Below, in pieces: positions 33,059 to 60,556 of a stretch of DNA of 64,000 bases. The translations under genes and the position numbers were made by a program. How positions within the stretch are numbered: the stretch's first letter is position 1; each line of letters opens with the position of its first letter. The stretch lies in NCBI RefSeq assembly GCF_000306785.1, contig NC_017955.1:2418001-2482000 (forward strand). The letters run 5' to 3'. The notes below the pieces were generated by a model. That model searched no databases, was not told where the DNA came from, and was given only the letters and a program-made list of their open reading frames with translations. Source of the DNA: Modestobacter italicus. Lineage in GTDB: Bacteria > Actinomycetota > Actinomycetes > Mycobacteriales > Geodermatophilaceae.

Positions 33059-33454
33059 CCGCTGCGCCGCGGTGAAGGCGTTCGCGGCTGAGGGCACCGG
33101 GAGTCCCGATCCCAGCACACCCGAGCTCCGTACGGGCGTCGTCGAGCCCTGGGAGGACGTGGCGCGGGTACGCACTCCTGCGTACTTCCGCGGCGGCTCG
33201 GGTCTGCCTACGGTTGGTGTTCTCGCAGCTCACGCGACGTCTGGGGGGATCATGCCGAACTCCTGCGTGCACAGACGCTGACGCACCACCGGCGGATCAG
33301 GTGTACAGGGCATCGCCGGGCCTCCGCGGGACGTCGGTCGTCCGCCGACCGAGCGCGGCCGGTCGTCCCGAGACCCCGACGGCCACGGGCCGGGATGTCC
33401 GCCCGGTCGCCGTCCCACCGCCATTGCTCCTTCCAGAGGGGAAGGGCGAGTTCC
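33059..33454. other. Divergent regulatory region between LuxR and SARP genes
   Basis: 396 nt with no convincing gene. It holds the palindrome at 33168-33185 and a 9-codon reading frame (33252-33281, MPNSCVHRR) preceded by GGGGGGAT, which could be a leader peptide for the downstream SARP. No terminator-like hairpin was recognised. Confidence 0.45.
33168..33185. promoter_or_regulatory. Perfect palindrome GTACGCA-N4-TGCGTAC
   Basis: Seven-base arms separated by CTCC, 110 nt upstream of the LuxR ATG and about 270 nt upstream of the SARP GTG. Likely operator for one of the two divergent regulators. Confidence 0.4.
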
Positions 33455-34252
33455 GTGGATGCTGCACCGCCCACCCAGGTCACCCTGCTGGACGGCTTCC
33501 GACTCGACGTCCAGGGGGTCGACCGGTGTTCGACCGGAGGCCTCCCACCTGGCGTGCAGCGGCTGGTCGCACACCTGTGTCTGTCCGGGAGAGCGGGCCG
33601 GACGGCCACAGCCGGCCGGCTGTGGCCTGACGTCTCCGAGTGCCGTGCGCACGGGAGCCTGCGGTCGGCCCTCTGGCGACTGCACAAGGCTGCGCCGGGC
33701 GTCATCGAGGTCTGCGGCGAGGTCCTCCGGCTGTCCCAGGACGTGCGGGTCGACGTGCGAGAGCTGAGCGCCTGGGCGCGGCGGGCGATCGCCCCGCCAG
33801 GAGACGACGCCGAGATCGCGGTGCCGGCCGCCGCGCTCGGGGGTGACCTGCTCCCCGGCTGGTACGACGACTGGGTGCTCGTCGAACGTGAGCGGTTGCA
33901 CCAGCTCCGGCTGCACGCCCTGGAGGCGACCGCAGCCAGGCTCGCCGTCCACGGCCGCCACTGGGAGGCGCTCCAGGCCGCCTATGCAGCAGTTCGTGCC
34001 GAGCCGCTCCGGGAGAGCGCTCACCGCACCATCGTGCGGGTCCACCTGGCCGAGGGGAACCTGGCCGAGGCCGCCCGGGCCTACGAGCTGTTCCGGAGCC
34101 TGGTGGAGAGCGAACTGGGCGTGCTCCCCACTCCGCGGATGACCCGGCTCGTCCAGGGGATCCCACCGCGCTGCTGCTCCTCGGCCGTGGCGGCCGTGCC
34201 CACGGGCGCCGTCCCGTGGGGGTCGACGGTGTCCGCAGTGCGCGTGCCCTGA
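33455..34252 (+). CDS. SARP-type regulator (winged-helix-like plus BTAD), paralog 1
   Basis: 265-residue member of the AfsR/SARP group: N-terminal OmpR-like winged-helix region (VTLLDGFRLDVQG, GSLRSALWRLHKAAPGV) and a bacterial transcriptional activator domain of TPR-like helices (LPGWYDDWVLVERERLHQLRL, VRAEPLRESAHRTIVRVHLAEGNL). GTG at 33455 with GGGCGAG 4 nt upstream. Two paralogs lie at 34819 and 59705, all sharing the GWYDDWV segment. SARPs activate secondary-metabolite or developmental genes by binding direct repeats near -35; likely targets are genes of this island. Confidence 0.88.
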   Translation: MDAAPPTQVTLLDGFRLDVQGVDRCSTGGLPPGVQRLVAHLCLSGRAGRTATAGRLWPDVSECRAHGSLRSALWRLHKAAPGVIEVCGEVLRLSQDVRVDVRELSAWARRAIAPPGDDAEIAVPAAALGGDLLPGWYDDWVLVERERLHQLRLHALEATAARLAVHGRHWEALQAAYAAVRAEPLRESAHRTIVRVHLAEGNLAEAARAYELFRSLVESELGVLPTPRMTRLVQGIPPRCCSSAVAAVPTGAVPWGSTVSAVRVP

Positions 34253-34818: not shown

Positions 34819-35571
34819 GTGGACGGTTCCGCTGGAGTCCGCGTCGGACTGCTCGATGGCTTCGCGCTCGAGCGCGGTCGTGGCGGCGCGTACCGGGTCG
34901 TCGAGGGCCTCCCGAGGCACGCGCAGCGCCTGATCGCCCATCTGAGCCTGCGCGGCCGGTCCACCCGGGCGGCCGTGGCGGGTGAGCTGTGGCCGGAGGT
35001 GCCGGAGGACCACGCACACGGCAGCCTGAGGTCGGCGTTGTGGCGCGTGCAGAAGGTCGCCCCCGGGCTGGTGGACGCCTCCGGCGGGGCTCTTGCGCTC
35101 GCCACCGGCGTACGGGTGGACGTCTGGGAGTTCGCGGAGTGGGCCCAGCGGACCCTGGACCCGACCGCCGACGTCGATGGCGCGACGGCACCCGAGTCGG
35201 CGCTCGCCGGCGAGCTGCTGCCCGGTTGGTACGACGACTGGGTGGTGCTGGAACGCGAGCGGCTCCGCCAGTTGCGGCTGCACGCCCTGGAGGTGCTGGC
35301 GGACAAGCTGGCGAGCGCAGGACGCCACGGTGAAGCGGTCCAGGCGGCCTGTGCCGCGGTGCGCGCCGAGCCGCTGCGGGAGAGCGCCCACCGCGCGCTC
35401 GTCCGGGTGCACCTCGCCGAGGGCAACCTCGCCGAAGCGGTACGCGCGTACCGGTGCTTCCGGGACCTGGTCGCCCACGAACTGGGAGTCGCCCCGACCG
35501 AGCACATGGAGGTGTTGATGTCCGAGGTGTGCCTCAGCGGTCGGTGGGCGGGACGCGCCGCACCCCACTGA
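34819..35571 (+). CDS. SARP-type regulator, paralog 2
   Basis: 250 residues with the same plan as the gene at 33455: winged-helix-like N-terminus (VGLLDGFAL, GSLRSALWRVQKVAPGL) and BTAD helices (LPGWYDDWVVLERERLRQLRL). GGGGGGAC precedes the GTG by 7 nt. It directly precedes the sigma-54 gene (78-nt gap), so it may control it. No ATPase or TPR extension as in AfsR. Confidence 0.88.
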   Translation: MDGSAGVRVGLLDGFALERGRGGAYRVVEGLPRHAQRLIAHLSLRGRSTRAAVAGELWPEVPEDHAHGSLRSALWRVQKVAPGLVDASGGALALATGVRVDVWEFAEWAQRTLDPTADVDGATAPESALAGELLPGWYDDWVVLERERLRQLRLHALEVLADKLASAGRHGEAVQAACAAVRAEPLRESAHRALVRVHLAEGNLAEAVRAYRCFRDLVAHELGVAPTEHMEVLMSEVCLSGRWAGRAAPH

Positions 35572-35649: not shown

Positions 35650-36987
35650 TTGTCCGTCGCGGAGTCGCGGCGGGACACTCCGGTCGTGGTGGGACCATCC
35701 GCCGCTCTCGCGCCGGGCCTCCAGATGGCACAGGGGTTCGCCCACCGGCAGCTCCTGTCCCCGCTGGCCGTCCAGGTGTTGGCGAGCCTGACCCTGACCC
35801 AGGCTGAGCTCGACTCCCTGGTGGCCGCACGTCTGGCGGCGAACCCGGTGCTCGTCGCGGGGACACCGCGTCGATGCCGGTGGTGTGCGTGCACCCTGCA
35901 GCTCGGCCGGTGCCCGCGGTGCGCGGGACAGGTGACGCTGGTACACGAACCCGTCGCGGTCGAGGACGAGATCGAGGAGCTGCGGCGGGAGGCGCGGCTG
36001 ATGGTCCGCCCGGCCCTCGCCCCGATGGTCGACCTCGTGGTGGCGCAGTTGGACGAGCGAGGCCTGCTGCCTGGACCGTCGTCGTCCGTCGAGGCCGGCG
36101 CACGGGCGTCCGACGAGTGGGCGGAGGCGGTCCGGGCGGTGCGGGCCGCGGGTCCGCCCGGAGTCGCGGCTCCGGACGTCCGGAGCTGCCTCCTCGACCA
36201 GGCCCGGTGGCACGCGTCGAACGGGGGACCGGCTCTCCTCGTCCCGATCGTCGCCGGGCACCTCGGCCGGGTCGCCGTGGGCGACCACGCCGAGATCGCC
36301 GGGGACCTCGGTGTGAGCACCTCGGCGGTCGACGACGCGGTGGCGTTCCTGCGGGCGAGACTGCGGCCCTCGGTCCTGACCACCGGGGCAGTGGCCGCCC
36401 CGGTAGGGGCTCCTCCGGACGTCATCGTCCGGCGCCGGGGAGACGGCCTGGAGGTGGTCGTGCTCGACGGCGCCGACCTCGGACTGGGCCTCGATCCGGA
36501 GCTCGATGCGCTCCGGCTGGCAGGCGACAGCGGTGAGTGGCTGGCCGACCGGTGCGCTGACGCCCGGGCCCTGCTGGACGTCGTCGACCGACGCGCCGGT
36601 GCGCTGCGCAGGGTGGCCACTGCGGTGGTGCACGCCCAGCGGGACTTCGTCCTGCACGGCCGCGCCGCGCACCGGCCGTTGACCCGCGCGGCCGTCGCGG
36701 CCGCCCTGGGAGTGCACCCGTCGACGGTGAGCCGCGCCGTGCAGGGCGCCGTCGTCGCGCTGCCGGACGGCGGCGTCCTGCCGCTCGCCGCGTTCTTCGG
36801 CAAGGCCGTGGCGGTCGTCGACTGCCTGGCCCGGATGCTCGCGTCGCCGGACCCGCCCCGCAGCGATGCCGACGCCGTGGCCCGGTTGGGCGTCGCCGGG
36901 CACGTCGTCGCCCGGCGGACGGTGACGAAGTACCGCCACCTGCTCGACACCGCCGCTGCCGGCCGTGCGAAGCGATCTTCTCCCTGA
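35650..36987 (+). CDS. rpoN: Divergent RNA polymerase sigma-54 factor (RpoN)
   Basis: 445 residues with all RpoN hallmarks. Region I activator-interacting domain at about 24-69 (LQM...Q.LLSPLAVQVLASLTLTQAELDSLV...NPVLV), core-binding middle, a helix-turn-helix (RPLTRAAVAAALGVHPSTVSRAVQG) and the RpoN box ARRTVTKYRH at 421-430 (consensus ARRTVAKYRE). In place of the acidic region II it carries a zinc-knuckle-like CxxC-CxxC (C76, C79, C88, C91), which I do not know from standard RpoN. Sigma-54 is classically held to be absent from Actinobacteria. TTG start at 35650 is uncertain; GTG 35686 is an alternative. A matching promoter and activator are in the same locus. Confidence 0.88.
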   Translation: MSVAESRRDTPVVVGPSAALAPGLQMAQGFAHRQLLSPLAVQVLASLTLTQAELDSLVAARLAANPVLVAGTPRRCRWCACTLQLGRCPRCAGQVTLVHEPVAVEDEIEELRREARLMVRPALAPMVDLVVAQLDERGLLPGPSSSVEAGARASDEWAEAVRAVRAAGPPGVAAPDVRSCLLDQARWHASNGGPALLVPIVAGHLGRVAVGDHAEIAGDLGVSTSAVDDAVAFLRARLRPSVLTTGAVAAPVGAPPDVIVRRRGDGLEVVVLDGADLGLGLDPELDALRLAGDSGEWLADRCADARALLDVVDRRAGALRRVATAVVHAQRDFVLHGRAAHRPLTRAAVAAALGVHPSTVSRAVQGAVVALPDGGVLPLAAFFGKAVAVVDCLARMLASPDPPRSDADAVARLGVAGHVVARRTVTKYRHLLDTAAAGRAKRSSP

Positions 36988-37043
36988 CCCCTACCCCGAC
37001 GAAGGCCGCTTCCGTCCCGTGGCCGTCCTGCCCACCGCGTGAC

Positions 37044-37059
37044 TGGCACGTTCCGTGCA
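37044..37059 (+). promoter_or_regulatory. Sigma-54 promoter (-24/-12)
   Basis: TGGCACG-TTCC-GTGCA: the GG (37045-37046) and GC (37057-37058) are separated by exactly 10 nt as sigma-54 requires, and 13 of the consensus positions TGGCACG-N4-TTGCA are met except one T. Predicted transcription start near 37070, leaving a ~26-nt leader with GGGAGG before ATG 37096. It lies 57 nt after the rpoN stop. Confidence 0.82.
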
Positions 37060-37095
37060 TGGAGAAGTGCACAGCCACTGGCGGGAGGACGAGTC

Positions 37096-37731
37096 ATGCA
37101 CGACATCGACCGGGCGCTCTTCGAGATGGACGGCGAGGACGAGTGGGGAGAGGCGGAGGGAGGGATGTACGAGTCCACGGAGATGGAGCTGGCCGGCGAG
37201 TTCCTGGAACTGGCCGGCGAGCAGGAACTCGATCGTTTCCTGGGCAAGCTGCTGTCGTCCGCCGTCGGCGCCGGGAAGGCGTTCCTCGGCTCGGACGCCG
37301 GCAAGGCGGTCGGTGGCCTGTTGAAGGGTGCCGCCAAGCAGGTGCTGCCCCAGATCGGGCGTGCGGTGGGCGACTTCATCGCTCCGGGCACCGGCGGTCA
37401 GATCGGCGGTCAGCTGGCCTCCTCGGTCGGCGCCAAGCTGGGGCTGGAACTCGAGGGTCTGTCCGCCGAGGACCGCGAGCTCGAAGCCGCGCGGGCCTTC
37501 GTCCGGTTCGCCGACGAGACCGCCCAGATCGCCGAGGCCGCGCCGCCGTCCGTGCCCCCGACGACCGCCGCCGCCCATGCGGCCACGGTGGCCGCGCAGC
37601 ACCAGCTGCCCGGCCTCGCGCCGGTGGTCCGCGCCCTGCGGCCTCCCGGCTCCGGCGGCGGGCCCCGCCCCGGCGCCGCGACCGGCCGCTGGGTGCGGCG
37701 CGGTTCCACCATCGTCCTGCACAACGTCTAG
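37096..37731 (+). CDS. Acidic/glycine-zipper protein 1 of the sigma-54 operon
   Basis: 211 residues, function unknown. Layout: acidic-aromatic N-terminus (DEWGEAEGGMYESTEMEL), a short helix ELDRFLGKLLSSAV, a Gly/Ala hydrophobic stretch with GxxxG spacing (GKAVGGLLKGAAKQVLPQIG to GGQLASSVG, about 68-118), a helix ELEAARAFVRFADETA and a Pro/Gly-rich basic tail. The glycine-zipper stretch could insert in a membrane or pack into a multimer. No signal peptide. GGGAGG 7 nt before ATG. First gene behind the sigma-54 promoter; the next gene is a paralog. Confidence 0.78.
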   Translation: MHDIDRALFEMDGEDEWGEAEGGMYESTEMELAGEFLELAGEQELDRFLGKLLSSAVGAGKAFLGSDAGKAVGGLLKGAAKQVLPQIGRAVGDFIAPGTGGQIGGQLASSVGAKLGLELEGLSAEDRELEAARAFVRFADETAQIAEAAPPSVPPTTAAAHAATVAAQHQLPGLAPVVRALRPPGSGGGPRPGAATGRWVRRGSTIVLHNV

Positions 37732-37739
37732 GAGCCCAG

Positions 37740-38759
37740 ATGTCCAGGTACGGGTCGTACGAGACGGAGTACGAGAACGGCGAGACGCCGCTGCAGGAAT
37801 GGGAGCTGGCGGGGGAGGCGGAGCAGTACGAGGAGGAGGCCGAGTACGAGACGGAGGGTGAGTACGAGACGGAGGGCGAGGAGGAGGCGCTCGAGTACGA
37901 GCTCACCAACGAGCTGCTGGCCGTCCGAAACGAGGCCGAGCTCGACCGCTTCCTCGGCAAGCTCATGAAGAGCGCCGGGACGTTCCTCAACTCCGGCGTC
38001 GGCAAGGCCGTCGGCGGCGTCCTGAAGAACGTCGCGAAGACGGTCCTCCCGGTCGCGGGCGCGGCGCTCGGGAGCGCTCTGCTGCCCGGGGTGGGCACCG
38101 CGCTCGGCGGCAAGCTGGGTTCGCTCGCCGGCGGGCTCCTGGAGGTGGAGGAGGCCGAGATGATGAGCGAGGACGAGGCCGAGTTCGAAGCCGCCCACCG
38201 CTTCGTGCAGTTCGGCAGGGCGACCAGCCGCACCGCCGGCCTGGCATCACCGAAGGTGCCGCCGAAGACCGTCGCCCGCGCGGCCGCCGTCGCCGCGGCC
38301 CGCAAGCACGCCCCTGGCCTCGTGCGCCCACGTCCCCAGTCGTCCCGTGACCGACGCCAACCAGGGCGTCCCGGACCGCAGGCGGGCACCGGACGGCGCC
38401 GCCCCTCGGGATCGGACCGCGGTCAGCCGCGACGTCGTCCCGCAGGGTCCGACGGCGGCCGACCGCGACGTCGTCCCGCACCCGGGGACGACGATCAGCC
38501 GCGCCGTCGGCCCCGACCGCCGTGGCAGCCCGCACCGTGGCTGCCCGCACCGTGGCCGCCGGCGCCGTGGCCGCCGGGACAGTGGCAGCCCAGCGACGCG
38601 TGGGCGGGGTGGGCCGGGGAGCCCGGCGCACGGAGCGCCGGTGCCCCGCCCGAGGACGCCGCCGGCCGGGGTCCCGGTCCCGCGGACGACGACCCCGGTC
38701 CCGAGCCCGGTCCCGCTGACGACGGTGGAGCCGACGAGTTCAGCGGGTTCGAGTTCTAG
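37740..38759 (+). CDS. Acidic/glycine-zipper protein 2 of the sigma-54 operon
   Basis: 339 residues, paralog of the preceding protein in its first ~200: repetitive acidic start with YETEGEYETEGEEE, ELDRFLGKLMKSAGTFL, the zipper GKAVGGVLKNVAKTVLPVAG...GTALGGKLG, then FEAAHRFVQFGRATS. The C-terminal third is low-complexity: Arg/Pro/Gly repeats (QPRRRP type), a WxPAPWxP repeat run and an acidic end GGADEFSGFEF. TAGGAG formed by the upstream stop provides its ribosome binding site, so the two are coupled. Function unknown; repeats suggest a surface or scaffold role. Confidence 0.75.
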   Translation: MSRYGSYETEYENGETPLQEWELAGEAEQYEEEAEYETEGEYETEGEEEALEYELTNELLAVRNEAELDRFLGKLMKSAGTFLNSGVGKAVGGVLKNVAKTVLPVAGAALGSALLPGVGTALGGKLGSLAGGLLEVEEAEMMSEDEAEFEAAHRFVQFGRATSRTAGLASPKVPPKTVARAAAVAAARKHAPGLVRPRPQSSRDRRQPGRPGPQAGTGRRRPSGSDRGQPRRRPAGSDGGRPRRRPAPGDDDQPRRRPRPPWQPAPWLPAPWPPAPWPPGQWQPSDAWAGWAGEPGARSAGAPPEDAAGRGPGPADDDPGPEPGPADDGGADEFSGFEF

Positions 38760-40069
38760 TGGACGTCGTGGGTGAGGACGGCACGCGGTGGGCGACGGGG
38801 TTGATCGACCAGGAGGCCCTCGCCCTGCTGACCCGACTGGGCCAGCACCGGCCGTTCGTCCTCACCGAGACGATGGTGCTCGCGGCCGCTCTGCCCTACA
38901 GCGCGCACCGGCGCATCGAACGGTTCCTCCACGAGAGCCGGACCACCCTCCGCGACGAGGTGGAGGGCTTCCTCCGCTGGCTCCACGGCCCGGGCCGGCA
39001 CGTCCCCCCTGCCGAGCAGCAGCGCAGGTTCGTCGCGATCCGCATCCACTTCAACGACGTGCTCTCCCAGGTCGACCTCTTCGCCGAGGTGATCACCCAG
39101 CGCAGCGAGAGCGGGACCGGGGTGTGGTTGTCGGGGCTCGACCGCCTGGCTGCCGAGGCGCTGGAACTGCCCGGGAGCTGGTTCGACCCGCCTCCGGTCG
39201 TCTGCTACCTGACGCGAGGGCCGGGTGCTGCCATCCGGCGGGCCCGTACCCGACTACCCGGCGGCCGACCGAATCCGGTGGCCATCGTGCGGGTGCCGCG
39301 GGAGCGCATGGTGGGTCACGGGATCGCCTCGTCCCTCGTCCACGAGGTCGGCCATCAGGGCGCGGCGCTGCTCGGGCTCGTGGAGTCGCTGCGTGCGGAG
39401 ATCCGTGAGCGCGGCCGACGGGACCGGAGCGCCACCCCCTGGGCCAGCTGGGAGCGCACCGTCTCGGAGTGCGTCGCCGACTTCTGGTCGGTCGGCAAGC
39501 TCGGCATCGCCTCGACGCTGGGCCTCCTGGCCGTCGTCAGCCTGCCGCGCTTCTTCGTGTTCCGTCCCCCCGGCGAGGACCCGCACCCCATGCCCTACGT
39601 CCGGGTCCTGCTGAGCGCCAGTGTCGGGGACACCCTCTACCCGCATCCGCAGTGGGCGGCGCTGGCCGACGCGTGGCGTGCCTGCTACCCGATGCGCGAC
39701 CTCCCGGTGGAGCGCCGGCGGGAGATCGACCGGCTGGAGGAGAGCCTGCCCGCGATGGCCGAGCTGATGGCCTCGCACCGGTCGGCGGCGCTGCGGGGTC
39801 GCCGCCTCGCCGATCTGATGCCGGTGGGGGAACGGCGGCCGGAACAGCTGATCGCACTGCACACGTCGTGGGGGGACGACGTCGGCGTGCTGGCTCGGCA
39901 GTCGCCCACGCTCGTCTTCGCCGTCCTCGGTCAGGCCAGGGCCACGGGCCGGATCGACCCGGTCCACGAGAGCCGGGTGCTCTCCGACGTCCTCACGGCC
40001 TGGGCGGTGCGCGGCAGCCTCGACGTCCTCGAACGAGACGCGCTGCCGACGCCGTCCCCGCGCCCATGA
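38759..40069 (+). CDS. Zinc metallopeptidase-like protein (HEVGH)
   Basis: 436 residues. A zincin motif HEVGH is at 195-199 (SSLVHEVGHQGAALLG) and a plausible third ligand Glu237 lies in VSECVADFW, giving an HExxH...E gluzincin pattern. No signal peptide or pro-domain recognised. GTG start overlaps the upstream TAG by one base, so it is part of the sigma-54 operon. It may process the two zipper proteins or an external target; that is inference. Confidence 0.75.
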   Translation: MDVVGEDGTRWATGLIDQEALALLTRLGQHRPFVLTETMVLAAALPYSAHRRIERFLHESRTTLRDEVEGFLRWLHGPGRHVPPAEQQRRFVAIRIHFNDVLSQVDLFAEVITQRSESGTGVWLSGLDRLAAEALELPGSWFDPPPVVCYLTRGPGAAIRRARTRLPGGRPNPVAIVRVPRERMVGHGIASSLVHEVGHQGAALLGLVESLRAEIRERGRRDRSATPWASWERTVSECVADFWSVGKLGIASTLGLLAVVSLPRFFVFRPPGEDPHPMPYVRVLLSASVGDTLYPHPQWAALADAWRACYPMRDLPVERRREIDRLEESLPAMAELMASHRSAALRGRRLADLMPVGERRPEQLIALHTSWGDDVGVLARQSPTLVFAVLGQARATGRIDPVHESRVLSDVLTAWAVRGSLDVLERDALPTPSPRP

Positions 40070-40099
40070 CCGCCCACCAGTCCTGAGAGAGGTACTCCC

Positions 40100-41665
40100 A
40101 TGCCCATCACCATCGAAATCAGCAGTGTCACGTCCGCGCTGGTCCAGGTCTCGGTGCGAGGCCTGGAGGGCGACGGCGGCTTCCGCTACACGGTCAACGA
40201 CAACGCCGGCAGGCAGATCGGTCACGGGAACCTCAAGGGGAGGGGCCCGGACCGCTACGTCGACATCCTGGACGTCCTCGAGGGCAAGCCGGCGGGCATG
40301 TACGAGTTCCGGGTCCACGAGGCGGCCGGCAGCGACCCCGAGACCTCGGCGGCTCGAGCCGATGCGGTGCTGGCCAGTCTGCGGTTCCAGTTCATCCCGA
40401 GCGCTCCGGCACCGATCACCCCGGCGGTGCCGCCGACGGTGGTCCGGCTGGACCGCGCCGCCTCCACCCCAACCACCGACGAGGTGCTGTCAACCCTGGT
40501 GCTGACGGCCACGACCGCCCGGTCCTTCGCCGCCTACAAGGCGTTCGTCGACCCGATCGTCTGCCGTCCCAGGACCGGCAGCCCCTTCGGTGCCGATGCC
40601 TACGAGCGGCTCGTACGGGCGACCCGGGAGTTCCTCGAGCAGGTGCGCGGCCCGGTCGTCGACCCGGGTGGGGTCGCCGGCGCCTACCTGACCGCGGACG
40701 GGCTCCTGCCCTACGTGGACACCATCGTGCAGCGCTTCCCCGATGCGCTGCGCGGCGACCCCTGCTCGGACCTCGACCCCGACCTGCTCGCCGAACCGTT
40801 CCCGCTCGAGCTGATCTGGAGCTACTGGGAGGAGCAGGCCGGCCTGGTCCAGACGCTCAACCACATCCTCGCCCGGTTCCAGAACCGACGCGTGACGAGC
40901 GGACCGGACCCGCTCGCTCGTCTGGACCTCAGTCCGCTGCGGCCGCTGCGGCACTTCCTCTGGTCGTGGGCGGAGGACGAGTCGTCGCGGCTCACCGTGC
41001 GCCATCGCGCGGCCGAGTACCGGTACGAGTACGGACTGGTCCTGGTGGGCCGTGCGGTCCCGGATCCCGGCTACTTCGTGGAGGCGAACAGCCGGTTCCT
41101 GGAGTCCTTCCACACGTTGCTGCACGAGGCGTTGGTGTTCTTCACCCTGGACGACGACACGACGGTGAACGCCGATGCCTTCCCGGTGTACAACGCGCTC
41201 CGCGACACGCACCTGGTCCTCGCCGAGGGCGCCAGCAACTCCTTCGGTGACCTGCCCACCCAGGCCCGCATGGAGATGCTCGTCATGCAGTGGCTGGCCA
41301 GCCAGCCCGAGGTGCGTGACTTCCTGGGCGGCAAGCCGATGGTCCCGTACGAGGAGCCGTGGATGGACCGCATCGACACGATGAAGTCGCTCGCCGGATG
41401 GACGCCGACCAGCGTGACCCACTTCCACGAACTCGCGGTGCGGGGTGAGCAGCTGCTCCTGACGATCCGCTGGGGCAACTGGAACAGCACCGCGGTGACC
41501 GCCGACAGCGCCCGGAACTGGGCGCGGACGTGGCGCAACCAGATCCAGCGCTACGTCCACGCCTACCGGGCCGCGACCGGGGTGGACCTCACGGTCGCAG
41601 CGGACGCCCGGCAGCCCGGTCACCTGCTCGCCCGGCGGGTGGCGGAACGGAGCCGGCGGCGATGA
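40100..41665 (+). CDS. Unknown protein with N-terminal beta-sandwich, sigma-54 operon
   Basis: 521 residues. The first ~105 look like an immunoglobulin-like beta-sandwich (ITIEISSVTSALVQVSVRG, YEFRVHEAAG); the rest (about 140-510) is a helical, Trp/His-rich region (LLHEALVFFTLDDDT, MEMLVMQWLASQPEVRDFL, THFHELAVRGEQLLL) that I cannot assign. GAGAGG precedes the ATG. Its stop overlaps the next start (ATGA), so the product of the next gene is probably a partner. Confidence 0.7.
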   Translation: MPITIEISSVTSALVQVSVRGLEGDGGFRYTVNDNAGRQIGHGNLKGRGPDRYVDILDVLEGKPAGMYEFRVHEAAGSDPETSAARADAVLASLRFQFIPSAPAPITPAVPPTVVRLDRAASTPTTDEVLSTLVLTATTARSFAAYKAFVDPIVCRPRTGSPFGADAYERLVRATREFLEQVRGPVVDPGGVAGAYLTADGLLPYVDTIVQRFPDALRGDPCSDLDPDLLAEPFPLELIWSYWEEQAGLVQTLNHILARFQNRRVTSGPDPLARLDLSPLRPLRHFLWSWAEDESSRLTVRHRAAEYRYEYGLVLVGRAVPDPGYFVEANSRFLESFHTLLHEALVFFTLDDDTTVNADAFPVYNALRDTHLVLAEGASNSFGDLPTQARMEMLVMQWLASQPEVRDFLGGKPMVPYEEPWMDRIDTMKSLAGWTPTSVTHFHELAVRGEQLLLTIRWGNWNSTAVTADSARNWARTWRNQIQRYVHAYRAATGVDLTVAADARQPGHLLARRVAERSRRR

Positions 41666-42285
41666 CGGTCACCGCTCCGCTGGAGCCACCGACGATCTCC
41701 CCCCTCGCCTTCCCGAAGCACAAGGGGCCGGGATACGTCGAGATCAAGCCGCACGACGTGGACGGCATCCGGGACGGTCTGGAACAGCTCTACAAGAACA
41801 AGAAGGGCTTCACCCAGACCTGGCGGAAGAAGAAGACGAGGCACCCCGCCGTCACGGTCTACCTGCTGACCTACATCTACGAGCCGTCGTCGGCACCGGG
41901 GACGAGCAGGCTCACGGCTCACCTCCTGGCGCCCACCGACAAGGCGCTGGACGACAACATCCCGGTTGCCGGACAACGCAGAGGGTCGATCCCTCCGGGG
42001 GGCCGCAAGCAGTGGCTGGACGACCTGGGTACCTGGTGGCTGCTGGCCCACCGACAGCCCATCGAGGAGCAGTCCTTCGGGCAGTGGGTGAGCCACGCCG
42101 GGCCGTCGGCAGCAGGGTTGATGCTGGAGGACCAGCTGCGGAAGGAGTTCCTGAAGAAGCACCAGGTACCCGCCGGCCGTCAGGGGAAGGTCAAGACGGC
42201 CAGCGCGAGGGGCGCCGACATCGACTTCAACGAACTGGCGGAGTTCTTCTACGAGTTGGACGCCGCGTCGGGTCGCGCGGCCTGA
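41662..42285 (+). CDS. Unknown protein, 207 residues, last gene of the sigma-54 operon
   Basis: Basic central part (YKNKKGFTQTWRKKKTRHP), a beta segment AVTVYLLTYIYE and a C-terminal helix DFNELAEFFYEL. ATG overlaps the upstream stop, and the 3' end overlaps the convergent activator gene by 37 bp. No family recognised. Obligate coupling with the upstream gene suggests a complex. Confidence 0.7.
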   Translation: MTVTAPLEPPTISPLAFPKHKGPGYVEIKPHDVDGIRDGLEQLYKNKKGFTQTWRKKKTRHPAVTVYLLTYIYEPSSAPGTSRLTAHLLAPTDKALDDNIPVAGQRRGSIPPGGRKQWLDDLGTWWLLAHRQPIEEQSFGQWVSHAGPSAAGLMLEDQLRKEFLKKHQVPAGRQGKVKTASARGADIDFNELAEFFYELDAASGRAA

Positions 42286-43661
42286 TCCGGCTCGGCCGCG
42301 CCCCCGGCCGTCCGGTAGTCCAGTGCGCGGCGGCTGATGCCGAGCATGCGGGCTGCGGCGGCCGGGCCGTCGGTCTCCGCCATCGCGATGTCGGTGGCGA
42401 TCTCCGGCACCAGCGACTTCAGCTGCTTGATCCCGATGCCCGCTCGCAGCGACAGCCGGATCGCCTGCTCCAGTCGCTCGTCCCAGGTGTCCGGGTCTCG
42501 GCCACCGGCCACTGCTTCCTGCGTGGGGGCCCCAGCGCCGTCCGAAAGCCCAGGGCGGTCGTCGGGCGAGATGTCCCCGGGGCTCACCGGCCCGTCACCG
42601 ACGTGCCGGGTGCCCACCCGCACTGCCAGCTGGCTGAGGTCGCGCACGTTCCCGGGGTAGGGCCGTCGCTGGAGCAGGTCGACCACGGCGGGGTCGAGCG
42701 CGAGCGGCTGCTGCCCCGGTCGCGCCTGGGACAGGAAGTGGTGGAACAGCGGGACGACGTCCTCCCGGCGCTCGCGCAGCGGTGGGAGGCGGACCGTGAC
42801 GGCGGCCAGCCGGAAGTAGAGGTCGCGGCGGAAGCGCCCGGCGTCGGACTCGGCGCGCAGGTCCCGGTTCGTCGCGGCCAGCAGACGGAAGGAGGTGTGC
42901 TGCCACTGGCTGCCGCCGACCGGCTTGTAGGTGCCCTCCTGGACGACGCGCAGCAGCGCGGCCTGCAGCTCGGCGGGCAGCTCGCCGACCTCGTCGAGGA
43001 ACAGCGTGCCGTGGTCGGCCATCCCGAAGGCACCGGACCGGGCGCCGCTGGCGCCGGTGAACGCCCCCTTCTCGTGCCCGAAGAACTCACTGCCCGACAG
43101 CGACGGGACGATGGTGGTGCAGTCGAGGAGCACGAGCTCACGGCGCCGGGGGCGCGGGTCGAGGTCGTGGACCAGGCGGGCCACCACCTCCTTGCCGGTC
43201 CCCGTCTCGCCGGTGAGCAGCATCGAGGAGGTGGTGAACCGGGCCATCTCGACGACCTCGCGGAGCACCGCCTTCCAGCGGTGCGCGGACCCCAGCGCCA
43301 CGGACCGGACCGCGTCGGACTCCACGATCGCGTCCACGGCCGCCCAGCGCTCGAGCCGGGCGAGCAGGTGGTCGGCGTCGTCCTCGGAAGAAAGGGGGAC
43401 GACGTCCTCGGCACCGCACTCGAGCAGCCGCCACGGATCGGCCCGGGCGCCGGCGCCCAGGGCGACGAGGACCCGGCCGCCGGACGCGGCAGCGTGCACC
43501 ACGTCCTCGGCGCGCGCGGGGTCACCGGCGACGAGGACGACGCCCGGCTCGCCGGCGGACACGGGTCGACCCTCGTGCAGACCCCGGTCGCGGAGACCGG
43601 CGGCGACGTCCTGGACCGCGCTCTCACCGGTGCGGCTGCCGCTGACCGTGAACCACGCCAT
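42249..43661 (-). CDS. Sigma-54-dependent AAA+ transcriptional activator
   Basis: 470-residue bacterial enhancer-binding protein. N-terminal ~110 residues look like a receiver-fold domain without a clear phospho-aspartate (VVLVAGD, LLECGAEDVVPL). The AAA+ core has Walker A GETGTGKE (151-158), the sigma-54 contact loop GAFTGA (199-204), Walker B GTLFLDE (218-224) and an arginine-finger region FRRDLYFRLA. The C-terminus has a Fis-type HTH (AAARMLGISRRALDYR). It remodels the sigma-54 closed complex using ATP. Convergent with the operon it presumably activates; no partner histidine kinase is nearby. Confidence 0.92.
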   Translation of the reverse strand: MAWFTVSGSRTGESAVQDVAAGLRDRGLHEGRPVSAGEPGVVLVAGDPARAEDVVHAAASGGRVLVALGAGARADPWRLLECGAEDVVPLSSEDDADHLLARLERWAAVDAIVESDAVRSVALGSAHRWKAVLREVVEMARFTTSSMLLTGETGTGKEVVARLVHDLDPRPRRRELVLLDCTTIVPSLSGSEFFGHEKGAFTGASGARSGAFGMADHGTLFLDEVGELPAELQAALLRVVQEGTYKPVGGSQWQHTSFRLLAATNRDLRAESDAGRFRRDLYFRLAAVTVRLPPLRERREDVVPLFHHFLSQARPGQQPLALDPAVVDLLQRRPYPGNVRDLSQLAVRVGTRHVGDGPVSPGDISPDDRPGLSDGAGAPTQEAVAGGRDPDTWDERLEQAIRLSLRAGIGIKQLKSLVPEIATDIAMAETDGPAAAARMLGISRRALDYRTAGGAAEPDQAARPDAASNS

Positions 43662-43831: not shown

Positions 43832-44359
43832 TCAGGCGACGGTCCGCGGTCCGCGGGCCTCCCGCCCGACGAGCACGAGGGCCGCGCTGATCAGGACCAG
43901 GTTCTTCAGGACGAACTCGCCGTCGGCGGTCAGCAGCAGCGGGTTGCCGTCGGTGACCATGAGCCCGGGCGCGGTCACGAAGGTCAGGAACGTCCCGGCG
44001 AGGTGCCCCGCCAGGACGAGGAGCACGACCGGGAGCGCCCTGCCGACCGCCACGGCGAGGCCGAGGCCGATCTCCACCAGGCCGAGGACGGGCACGGTGA
44101 CGTCCGAGCTGAGGAACGGCAGCGTCGCGCCGATGAGCCCTTCGACGGGCGTGTCACCGGTGACCTTCAGGGCGCCGAACCACACGAACACCAGTGCCAG
44201 GGAGAGGCGCAGAGCGGTCGGACCGCAGCGCCCGCACCCGGCCGAGATGCCCGTCAGGACGTCGTCGACCCGCGACCGCAGCCCGGCCGGCTCTCCGTCC
44301 GGTGTCATCGGCGACCACGGCCGGGTCCGGACGGCCGGGAGTTCCTGAGTGGGTGGCAT
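43832..44359 (-). CDS. DoxX/DUF417-like membrane protein
   Basis: 175 residues with four predicted membrane helices after a ~45-residue cytosolic start (ALRLSLALVFVWFGALKVTG; VPVLGLVEIGLGLAVAVG; VLLVLAGHLAGTFLTFV; LKNLVLISAALVLVG). The pattern and the FVTAPGLM...LTADGEFVLKN segment match the YkgB/DUF417-DoxX family, often oxidative- or reactive-chlorine-stress linked. ATG 44359 chosen as AGGAG lies 6 nt before it. A repeat element at 44410-44439 lies in its upstream region. Confidence 0.84.
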   Translation of the reverse strand: MPPTQELPAVRTRPWSPMTPDGEPAGLRSRVDDVLTGISAGCGRCGPTALRLSLALVFVWFGALKVTGDTPVEGLIGATLPFLSSDVTVPVLGLVEIGLGLAVAVGRALPVVLLVLAGHLAGTFLTFVTAPGLMVTDGNPLLLTADGEFVLKNLVLISAALVLVGREARGPRTVA

Positions 44360-44409
44360 GACCATCTCCTGTTCGCGCGGGTCGTCGCCGGAGCGGCGTC
44401 GTGCCAGGG

Positions 44410-59704: not shown

Positions 59705-60556
59705 ATGGGTTCCACCACGGCGCGACTGGACCTGCTGGGCGGGTTCAGGCTCCAGGTCAGCGGTGCGCACCCGCGCGCTGCGGCGGACGACCTGCCCAGG
59801 GGAGTGCAGCGGCTGGTCGCGCACCTGGGTCTGTCCCACCGTCCGGCGCGCTCCGCCGTCGCCGGCCTCCTGTGGCCCGAGGTCCCCGAGTCCCAGGCCC
59901 AGGGCAGTCTGCGTTCGGCCCTCTGGCGGCTGCAGAAGATGGCGCCGGGGGTCATCGAGGTGTCCGGCGGGGTGCTCGCGCTGGCGCCCGCCGTCCGGGT
60001 CGACGTCCGGGAGTTCGACGTGTGGGCGCACGCCTCGATCGACCCGCGGGTCGACGTCGACCGGTCCGTGCTGGCCGAGGTCGGCCTGTCCGGGGAGCTC
60101 CTGCCGGGCTGGTACGACGACTGGGTGCTGCTGGAGCGCGACCGGCTGCGCCAGCTGCGCCTGCACGCCCTGGAGGCCCTGGCCGACAAGCTGACCGCGG
60201 TCGGGCGCCATGGGGAGGCGCTGCAGGCGGCGCACGCCGCCGTCCGGGCCGAACCGCTCAGGGAGACCGCCCGCCGAGCGCTCATGCGCATCCAGCTCGC
60301 GCAGGGCAACGTCGCGGAGGCCCTTCGCACCTACGAGTCCTTCCGTCGGTACCTCTTCGACGAGCTGGGCGTCGCCCCGTCGTCGCAGATGGACGACCTG
60401 GTCGCGGGCATCCGCCGTCCACGGCGGGTCCCCGCGCTGGTGTCGGTGCCCAGCGGCGGTGCGTCGGCGGCCCACCGCACCGGCTGGACCGTCGGGTCCC
60501 AGGACGTGTCGTCAGGCAGCGGTAGGTCCGGGCACGTCGCCCGGGGACGGCAGTGA
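59705..60556 (+). CDS. SARP-type regulator, paralog 3
   Basis: 283 residues, same plan as the genes at 33455 and 34819: DLLGGFRLQVSG, GSLRSALWRLQKMAPGV, LPGWYDDWVLLERDRLRQLRL, with an extra Ser/Gly-rich tail of ~40 residues. ATG 59705 preferred, with GAGGGGG 7-8 nt upstream; GTG at 59669 is possible. Convergent with the trypsin-NUC gene, 10 nt between stops. Likely regulator of the peptidase genes around it. Confidence 0.88.
   Translation: MGSTTARLDLLGGFRLQVSGAHPRAAADDLPRGVQRLVAHLGLSHRPARSAVAGLLWPEVPESQAQGSLRSALWRLQKMAPGVIEVSGGVLALAPAVRVDVREFDVWAHASIDPRVDVDRSVLAEVGLSGELLPGWYDDWVLLERDRLRQLRLHALEALADKLTAVGRHGEALQAAHAAVRAEPLRETARRALMRIQLAQGNVAEALRTYESFRRYLFDELGVAPSSQMDDLVAGIRRPRRVPALVSVPSGGASAAHRTGWTVGSQDVSSGSGRSGHVARGRQ

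Follow-up and report, generated by a model that had tools for sequence, protein, structure and literature searches.

Within a 64,000-nucleotide stretch of the Modestobacter italicus genome (contig NC_017955.1, positions 2,418,001 to 2,482,000; hereafter the window), we describe a single continuous 8-kb block (35650-43661) that, in its regulatory part, is very probably a mobile operon carrying a complete private sigma-54 switch. The block holds a sigma-54 gene, two palindromes, a promoter, five co-directed genes (g1-g5) and a convergent gene for a sigma-54 activator, or enhancer-binding protein (EBP). A first-pass annotation of this DNA had placed sigma-54, promoter, five-gene operon and GAFTGA activator in one 8-kb block, and domain matches and coordinates bore this out; the palindrome pair upstream of the promoter is an element absent from that annotation. 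Sequence comparison across species showed that sigma-54, one dedicated activator, a palindrome pair in helical register and a −24/−12 promoter co-occur before a conserved operon, and that actinobacterial operons without sigma-54 are also without the promoter and the palindrome pair. The host genome is one contig of 5.58 Mb.

Distribution of the cassette across genomes and phyla

The GTDB contig collection was scanned with g3, and the best 80 of 135 loci were kept and mapped with the proteins of the window, Pseudarthrobacter and Nocardiopsis; many contigs end early. These loci represent 12 named phyla (Pseudomonadota 38, Actinomycetota 21, Chloroflexota 5, Planctomycetota 3, and others), with one locus unassigned. 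The gene g3 is accompanied by g4 in 78/80 loci, by g1/g2 in 74/80, by both in 72/80 and by the activator in 55/80. The first-pass annotation had named a lack of conservation elsewhere as grounds to abandon its claim; the gene-neighbourhood search it called for instead returned g1/g2, g3 and g4 together in those 72 loci. At E<=0.001, the g3 family itself took in 4982 of the 7996 candidates scored.

Among 394 genomes of the class, sigma-54 was found in three at E<=2.2e-22. The same three, from three different families, were the only ones with a close g3 (>700 bits); fourteen weaker g3 matches (18.7 to 131 bits) were left uncounted. Sigma-54 and activator both lie in the locus in 16/21 loci from Actinomycetota. 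A further locus, L045 (Agromyces), has the activator in place and sigma-54 on another contig beside a g1 copy, and all 17 actinobacterial loci with an activator thus have sigma-54, 16 in the locus and L045 elsewhere in the genome. The other four, L101 (Actinomadura) and L102, L110 and L118 (Streptomyces), contain neither gene within stretches of 14, 5, 21 and 21 kb, and their genomes gave no PF04552 match. These four operons comprise g1/g2-g3-g4 without a sigma-54 promoter or palindrome pair.

Within the fetched stretch, sigma-54 went unmatched in all 59 non-actinobacterial loci. The genomes of 28 of these loci were searched, and 26/28 encode sigma-54 elsewhere, 24 with E<=2.5e-54. A further two Chloroflexota genomes had one sigma-54 match each (E 4.0e-29 and 2.1e-35). 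In the Chloroflexota genomes G881 and G883, sigma-54 adjoins a cassette-type activator and an amidohydrolase on contigs other than that of g3, which places the cassette sigma-54 outside Actinomycetota as well.

The cassette sigma-54 and its activator

The window sigma-54 matched the PF04552 DNA-binding domain (E=4.6e-26) and the PF04963 core-binding domain (E=3.9e-13), both above the Pfam cut-offs, and its RpoN box reads ARRTVTKYR. A PF04552 search identified it as the sole sigma-54 match in the genome. It scored 151.5 bits against the NCBIfam equivalog TIGR02395, under the curated cut-off of 277.35, which points to a divergent sigma-54 subfamily rather than the equivalog. For the window sequence on its own, no PF00309 (region I) match appeared at E<=1; a profile-profile comparison aligned the cassette region I with that of ordinary sigma-54 (probability 97.7, 45/50 columns). 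The NPxL anchor motif of region I occurs in 19/21 cassette rows and 34/42 reference rows.

Between region I and the core-binding domain, 14/21 cassette rows carry a paired CxxC, represented in the window protein by CRWC and CPRC, which we infer to form a zinc ribbon. Among the 42 reference sequences, the pair was seen only in the Chloroflexota sequence L171; L180, also from Chloroflexota, carries it too. No CxxC was found in L048, and one each was found by pattern in L014, L038, L039, L052 and L053. The L119 protein (482-aa frame) was entered with a shortened N-terminus and was hence counted without region I and the paired CxxC.

The window activator matched PF00158 with E=2.8e-53 (183.6 bits), contains GAFTGA and is alone in the genome in matching the sigma-54 activator domain over its full length, the four other PF00158 matches being above the Pfam cut-off but partial (22.7-32 bits). 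Its putative Fis-type helix-turn-helix (HTH) matched PF02954 at E 0.0014 but with 18.7 bits, under the cut-off of 22. GAFTGA is exact in 49/57 activators of the family and reads GAYTGA or GSFTGA in 5, with the remaining 3 unresolved. An N-terminal domain not recognised by Pfam is common to the family, with W77, G83, R105 and G124 invariant among 43 aligned sequences. No receiver family matched at E<=1, the ntrC model covering residues 123-447 only, and a very divergent receiver is possible; there was likewise no CARF match, and the RtcR models cover residues 123-351 only, the AAA+ part. When nine proteins were compared with the PADLOC models, only the activator matched, again through its AAA+ part. 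By its domains the protein is a bacterial EBP, and by its N-terminal domain it is neither NtrC-type nor RtcR. Both the sigma-54 and the activator parts look functional.

Promoter and upstream palindromes

The promoter TGGCACGTTCCGTGCA agrees with 10/12 consensus positions, with GG and GC correctly spaced, and its score was reached by 0/500 first-order resamples of the gap between sigma-54 and g1. A consensus scan of 36850-37150 found no sigma-70-type promoter, a scan that SARP promoters would escape. Across sigma-54 loci, a promoter site at p<=0.01 lies between sigma-54 and g1 in 16/21, a count that includes duplicates and scored L066 on a wrong region; the L066 promoter is visible in two other analyses. 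Consistently, a GG-N10-GC site with at least 9/12 consensus matches is present in 16/18 non-duplicate sigma-54 loci. For loci without a cassette sigma-54, a promoter was detected at p<0.05 (uncorrected) in 41/56, and the 15 without one include all four sigma-54-less actinobacterial operons (scores 5, 6, 8 and 7).

Ahead of the promoter GAA-N6-TTC recurs, mostly as CGAA-N6-TTCG, in a pair typically ~42 bp apart across loci. The 64-kb window contains three GAA-N6-TTC sites, two of which are GAAGCGATCTTC and GAAGGCCGCTTC. In 20 sigma-54 loci (window excluded, the duplicates or near-duplicates L013, L038 and L039 included), 31 palindromes were seen against 0.46 expected, with at least one in 17 and at least two in 13. 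The 56 loci without a cassette sigma-54 gave 114 against 8.6 expected, with at least one in 51. The five without any are the sigma-54-less L101, L102 and L110, together with L079 and L114; the L114 pair sits just beyond the scanned 500-bp stretch. L118, the fourth sigma-54-less actinobacterial locus, holds one palindrome.

Palindrome spacings fell at 20-21, 31-32 or 41-43 bp in 57/67 cases, and the promoter lay 38-40, 49-52 or 60-62 bp from the inner palindrome in 34/60, in bins picked after the data were seen and in a table that omits L013, L038 and L039 (duplicate or short). Such values are as expected for proteins on one helix face. The corresponding values in the window are 32 and 37. A palindrome followed after 20-50 bp by TGGCAC occurs once in the 5.58-Mb genome, at g1. 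In L014 (Nocardiopsis), two copies of another palindrome, GCGCAGCCGGCTGCGC, were found by eye 42 bp apart before g1, the same geometry in different letters. The palindromes would be the binding sites of the activator.

Phylogeny and mobility

In a 52-row sigma-54 tree, the 19 cassette rows (17 different) formed one clade with SH-aLRT 99, next to three Chloroflexota sequences and apart from the 30 other reference rows; the tree omits L013 (same contig as L047), L119 (for its shortened N-terminus, the gene itself being intact) and 9 thinned reference sequences. Distances of sigma-54, EBP, g3 and g4 correlated over 18 loci (r 0.79-0.88, Mantel p 0.0005; L013, L038 and L039 omitted as duplicate or short), as for parts that move together. 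Sigma-54 is present in 3/18 genomes of the same genus, the window's own counted, and in 0/78 other genomes of the family. The window copy groups with Georgenia/Cellulomonas, away from the two other same-genus copies, suggesting a separate acquisition. The sigma-54 of one same-genus genome, G840, does not differ from that of Modestobacter excelsi.

In the same-genus genome G813, which has no sigma-54, relatives of the BTAD and DoxX genes that flank the window cassette enclose ~10.7 kb of other genes (L178 1917-13915), which suggests that this interval is a site of variable content. One open reading frame (ORF) between these flanks resembles a haem peroxidase by eye. The first-pass annotation had called the cassette transferable, and the 3/18 same-genus carriage, the grouping in the tree and the different genes between the flanks of a sister genome support that description.

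Carriage by plasmids or phages was considered and rejected, g3 relatives being present on 5/72,556 plasmid records (Rhizobium, Ensifer and Paraburkholderia) and matching none of 50,697 phage records. No tRNA was found in the window. Three BTAD/SARP-type genes lie in the window (33395-34252, 34819-35571 and 59708-60409). BTAD genes, some of them paired, also occur in same-genus genomes with and without sigma-54. Among the other fetched loci scanned, BTAD genes lie near the cassette in three loci of two Micrococcaceae genomes (L013, on the L047 contig, and L049), where they adjoin the activator. Given this distribution, we rejected BTAD as a cassette part.

Operon proteins and cargo of other loci

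The features of the locus are listed in Table 1. The gaps g1-g2, g2-g3, g3-g4 and g4-g5 measure 8, -1, 30 and -4 bp, and the tail of the activator gene overlaps g5 by 37 bp.

Table 1 Features of the sigma-54 cassette and its flanks in the window
Feature	Position	Strand	Description
Cassette sigma-54, 445 aa	35650-36987	+	Region I, CRWC + CPRC, core-binding domain, DNA-binding domain with RpoN box; length counted from a TTG start, start codon uncertain
Palindrome 1 GAAGCGATCTTC	36969-36980		Within the last codons of the sigma-54 gene; putative activator site
Palindrome 2 GAAGGCCGCTTC	37001-37012		32 bp from palindrome 1; putative activator site
−24/−12 sigma-54 promoter TGGCACGTTCCGTGCA	37044-37059	+	Predicted transcription start ~37070
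g1, 211 aa	37096-37731	+	MHDIDR N-terminus, glycine zipper, C-terminal GRWxRRG motif
g2, 339 aa	37740-38759	+	g1 paralog, long acidic head, glycine zipper
g3, 436 aa	38759-40069	+	Gluzincin-like metallopeptidase candidate: HEVGH (195-199) + ExxAD (237-241)
g4, 521 aa	40100-41665	+	N-terminal Ig/FN3-like domain, all-helical C-terminal domain
g5, 207 aa	41662-42285	+	ExKP motif; accessory gene present in several actinobacterial cassettes
Sigma-54 activator (EBP), 470 aa	42249-43661	-	AAA+ with GAFTGA, putative Fis-type HTH; convergent with the operon
Left flank, BTAD/SARP-type regulator, 250 aa	34819-35571	+	Cassette membership uncertain
Right flank, DoxX-like protein	43832-44365	-	Outside the cassette

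Family assignment of g1-g5 was attempted with Pfam, NCBIfam, PADLOC and PHROGs and yielded nothing convincing. The g2 protein matches g1 at 46% over 169 aa, its glycine zipper matched PF13488 at E 0.0086, below the cut-off, and in L014 g1 and g2 form one open frame. In g3, the zinc-site residues H195, E196, H199, E237 and D241 are invariant in 52 sequences; the protein matched no PDB chain by sequence at E<=1 and no Pfam family. It shares HEXXH and ExxAD with M48 gluzincins such as BepA (6ait/6sar), from which it differs in its large extra helical parts and in giving no sequence match. No PDB chain matched g4 by sequence at E<=1. In a fold search, its N-terminal domain looked Ig/FN3-like, and the helical C-terminal domain was barely covered. 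In P0144 (887 aa), a g4 relative is fused to a pyridoxal phosphate (PLP)-dependent aminotransferase domain (PF00155), joining two neighbour genes of other loci. The ExKP motif of g5 is kept in 6/6 aligned relatives, including L013 15711-16346; this L013 relative matched Tox-REase-9 weakly (E 0.0042, below the cut-off), and the match was not used for assignment.

In its fuller form the operon runs g1/g2, g3, g4, a PLP enzyme, variable cargo and an amidohydrolase, in most cases followed by an activator gene of opposite orientation. In the window copy, the place between g4 and the activator is taken by g5, and neither a PLP enzyme nor an amidohydrolase is seen there. A survey of 51 loci found 16 Pfam families among 76 accessory ORFs, a result that concerns other loci and not the window copy; these ORFs were called by taking the longest frame, a rule that may have let in spurious ones. 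The cargo includes peptidoglycan-binding domains, wall hydrolases, proteases (papain-like and trypsin-like) and weak GIY-YIG and HNH matches.

The peptidoglycan-binding domains, wall hydrolases and proteases of other loci point to an envelope-directed effector, by a weaker inference than that for the switch. Tentatively, and at rather less than an even chance, the product may be an effector module aimed at the envelope, made up of the glycine-zipper proteins g1/g2, the gluzincin-type metallopeptidase g3 and, elsewhere, exchangeable cargo. A putative toxic or costly product combined with near-zero basal expression is plausible.

Proposed mechanism

In the proposed mechanism, the cassette sigma-54 would bind core RNA polymerase and close on TGGCAC-N5-KTGCA ahead of g1. 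Activator dimers would occupy the two palindromes, a signal would prompt formation of the AAA+ ring, and the GAFTGA loops would then remodel sigma-54 region I at the expense of ATP, switching on g1-g5. Phyla that have an RpoN of their own would use the same operon, activator and palindromes with no sigma-54 in the cassette. RpoN is rare or absent in Actinomycetota and some Chloroflexota, and there a captured sigma-54 would ride inside the cassette. Effector cargo would be kept silent until triggered.

The switch grammar can be written as two CGAA-N6-TTCG sites, separated by some four turns of the helix, followed by a −24/−12 promoter. We give close to an even chance, falling just short of it, to the wider proposal of a cross-phylum effector module that keeps this grammar in many of the 12 phyla. 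Its zinc-ribbon sigma-54 would have been captured once, on entering sigma-54-poor phyla, and would move with it as one orthogonal unit.

Evidence against and alternative explanations

Several observations weigh against a private, mobile switch with an effector product. The −24/−12 consensus is unexceptional in the window (10 matches with <=2 mismatches, 15 expected) and shows no enrichment across the genome (10 hits, against 34 for the reversed control). We therefore rejected the consensus alone as statistical weight, and the promoter claim is carried by position and cross-species conservation. The single genomic occurrence of the palindrome-promoter module is equalled by its reversed-pattern control, also 1. 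Outside Actinomycetota, 11/52 loci are without a promoter at p<0.05, and 2/28 genomes with the operon, both metagenome-assembled, have no sigma-54 match.

Three sigma-54 loci (L014, L066 and L113) contain no CGAA-N6-TTCG. The Geodermatophilaceae loci L052 and L053 have one palindrome each and no canonical −24 element (CGCAC for GGCAC); their RpoN box is SRSAVRKYR, against the usual ARRTVxKYR, and the −24 element and RpoN box may have changed together within this one clade. Strict Walker A, Walker B and R-finger patterns match only 43, 33 and 28 of the 57 activators. Four further genomes of the class gave PF04552 matches of E 2.6e-4 to 7.2e-4, which were treated as noise, and G363 reached 23.4 bits, just above the Pfam cut-off of 22.8. 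In the sigma-54 tree, long branches and a biased composition were flagged, and the Mantel correlations partly reflect species relatedness or shared descent. For the product, the assignment leans mostly on the cargo of other loci: no recognisable wall hydrolase was found in the window, and the family scans made, none of them a dedicated search for such genes, recognised no secretion or immunity genes.

Two alternatives concern the switch. The cited portion of PMC12316311 concludes for the phylum that actinobacterial sigma-54 genes are functionless, decaying remnants of horizontal transfer. The low TIGR02395 score of the window copy, the missing PF00309 match and the lack of sigma-54 genes in the majority of class and family genomes fit that idea. 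Decay is nevertheless hard to reconcile with frames that stay open in many families and retain region I, core-binding and DNA-binding domains, with promoters and palindromes in loci as distant as Micrococcaceae, Kribbella and Kibdelosporangium, or with a single clade of correlated distances. The joint loss of sigma-54, promoter and palindrome pair from four operons argues in the same direction, and we regard decay as extremely improbable. Scarcely more credible is transcription of the five genes from the upstream BTAD/SARP regulators by a sigma-70-type polymerase reading through sigma-54. BTAD genes do adjoin the window cassette and two distinct Micrococcaceae cassettes (the L013/L047 contig and L049). 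Against read-through, the other fetched loci scanned gave no BTAD match at E<=1e-4, same-genus genomes without sigma-54 possess such genes, and no sigma-70-like site was found ahead of g1 by the scan described above, with its blindness to SARP promoters.

The product leaves more room for other readings. The operon could be an ordinary host regulon for envelope stress or wall remodelling, phage-shock-like, rather than an effector against other cells, which we consider a real but doubtful possibility. Its patchiness, with a close g3 in three of the 394 genomes of the class, its variable cargo of papain-like, trypsin-like and weak GIY-YIG and HNH proteins and its 12-phylum spread look less like housekeeping. 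An unlikely scheme is a modified-peptide or surface-assembly pathway in which g1/g2 are precursor-like or scaffold proteins, g3 processes them, the PLP enzyme and amidohydrolase decorate them, and wall hydrolases only aid release. The small size, frequent duplication and recurring MHDIDR... and GRWxRRG motifs of g1/g2 would suit such a scheme, as would the HEXXH and ExxAD motifs of g3 and the frequent PLP-enzyme and Amidohydro_2 partners. However, neither a cleavage motif nor a known modifying enzyme could be identified, and the window cassette has neither partner between g4 and the activator.

Relation to known systems and implications

The private sigma-54 switch shares with RpoN and its NtrC-, PspF- or RtcR-type EBPs the region I, core-binding and DNA-binding domains, RpoN box, GAFTGA-bearing AAA+ domain, −24/−12 promoter and paired sites in helical register. 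It differs in that its sigma-54 lies inside the target cassette and is the genome's only one, in the paired CxxC of most cassette rows and in an activator without a receiver or CARF match. Specialised extra RpoN copies are known, among them Cereibacter RpoN3 (PMC11999139) and Bradyrhizobium megaplasmid RpoNp (PMC13207237). Like the cassette sigma-54, these serve a gene subset; they stand beside an existing RpoN, whereas the cassette sigma-54 is the sole copy and accompanies one operon across families and phyla. Polymorphic effector and toxin systems resemble the cassette family in their exchangeable enzymatic cargo, several items of it wall-directed; unlike them, the cassette gave no sign of a secretion apparatus, an immunity gene or a common delivery signal in general family scans. 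Searches of the open-licence PubMed Central literature found no description of a sigma-54 that is the sole copy, lies in a cassette and comes with activator sites of its own.

The sigma-54 system is stated to be lacking in Actinobacteria in the cited part of PMC3162934. The portion of PMC12316311 (2025) cited here reports odd rpoN genes in three true actinobacteria (Modestobacter marinus, Citricoccus SGAir0253 and Alloactinosynnema L-07), mentions no cassette and judges the phylum to be effectively without functional RpoN. Citricoccus sp. SGAir0253 has a gene for a close g3 (P0062), and the L053 cassette belongs to Modestobacter excelsi. The odd rpoN genes of that portion are therefore very probably cassette sigma-54s, as judged from carriage of g3 or the cassette rather than from those three genes. 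Other classes of the phylum have ordinary sigma-54s (L029 and L030, E 6.5e-38 and 1.3e-36), which fall outside the cassette clade and have an EBP-like gene within the fetched stretch.

With the cassette, the divergent actinobacterial sigma-54s gain a likely target, activator and promoter, which runs against the view expressed in the cited portion of PMC12316311. The cassette looks like a natural, whole transcription system, comprising sigma factor, activator, operator, promoter and payload, that moves as a unit, carrying the sigma factor into hosts that have none and dispensing with it in hosts that do. The cassette could serve actinobacteria as an orthogonal expression switch gated by ATP, and it draws attention to a large family of operons for which no function has been described.

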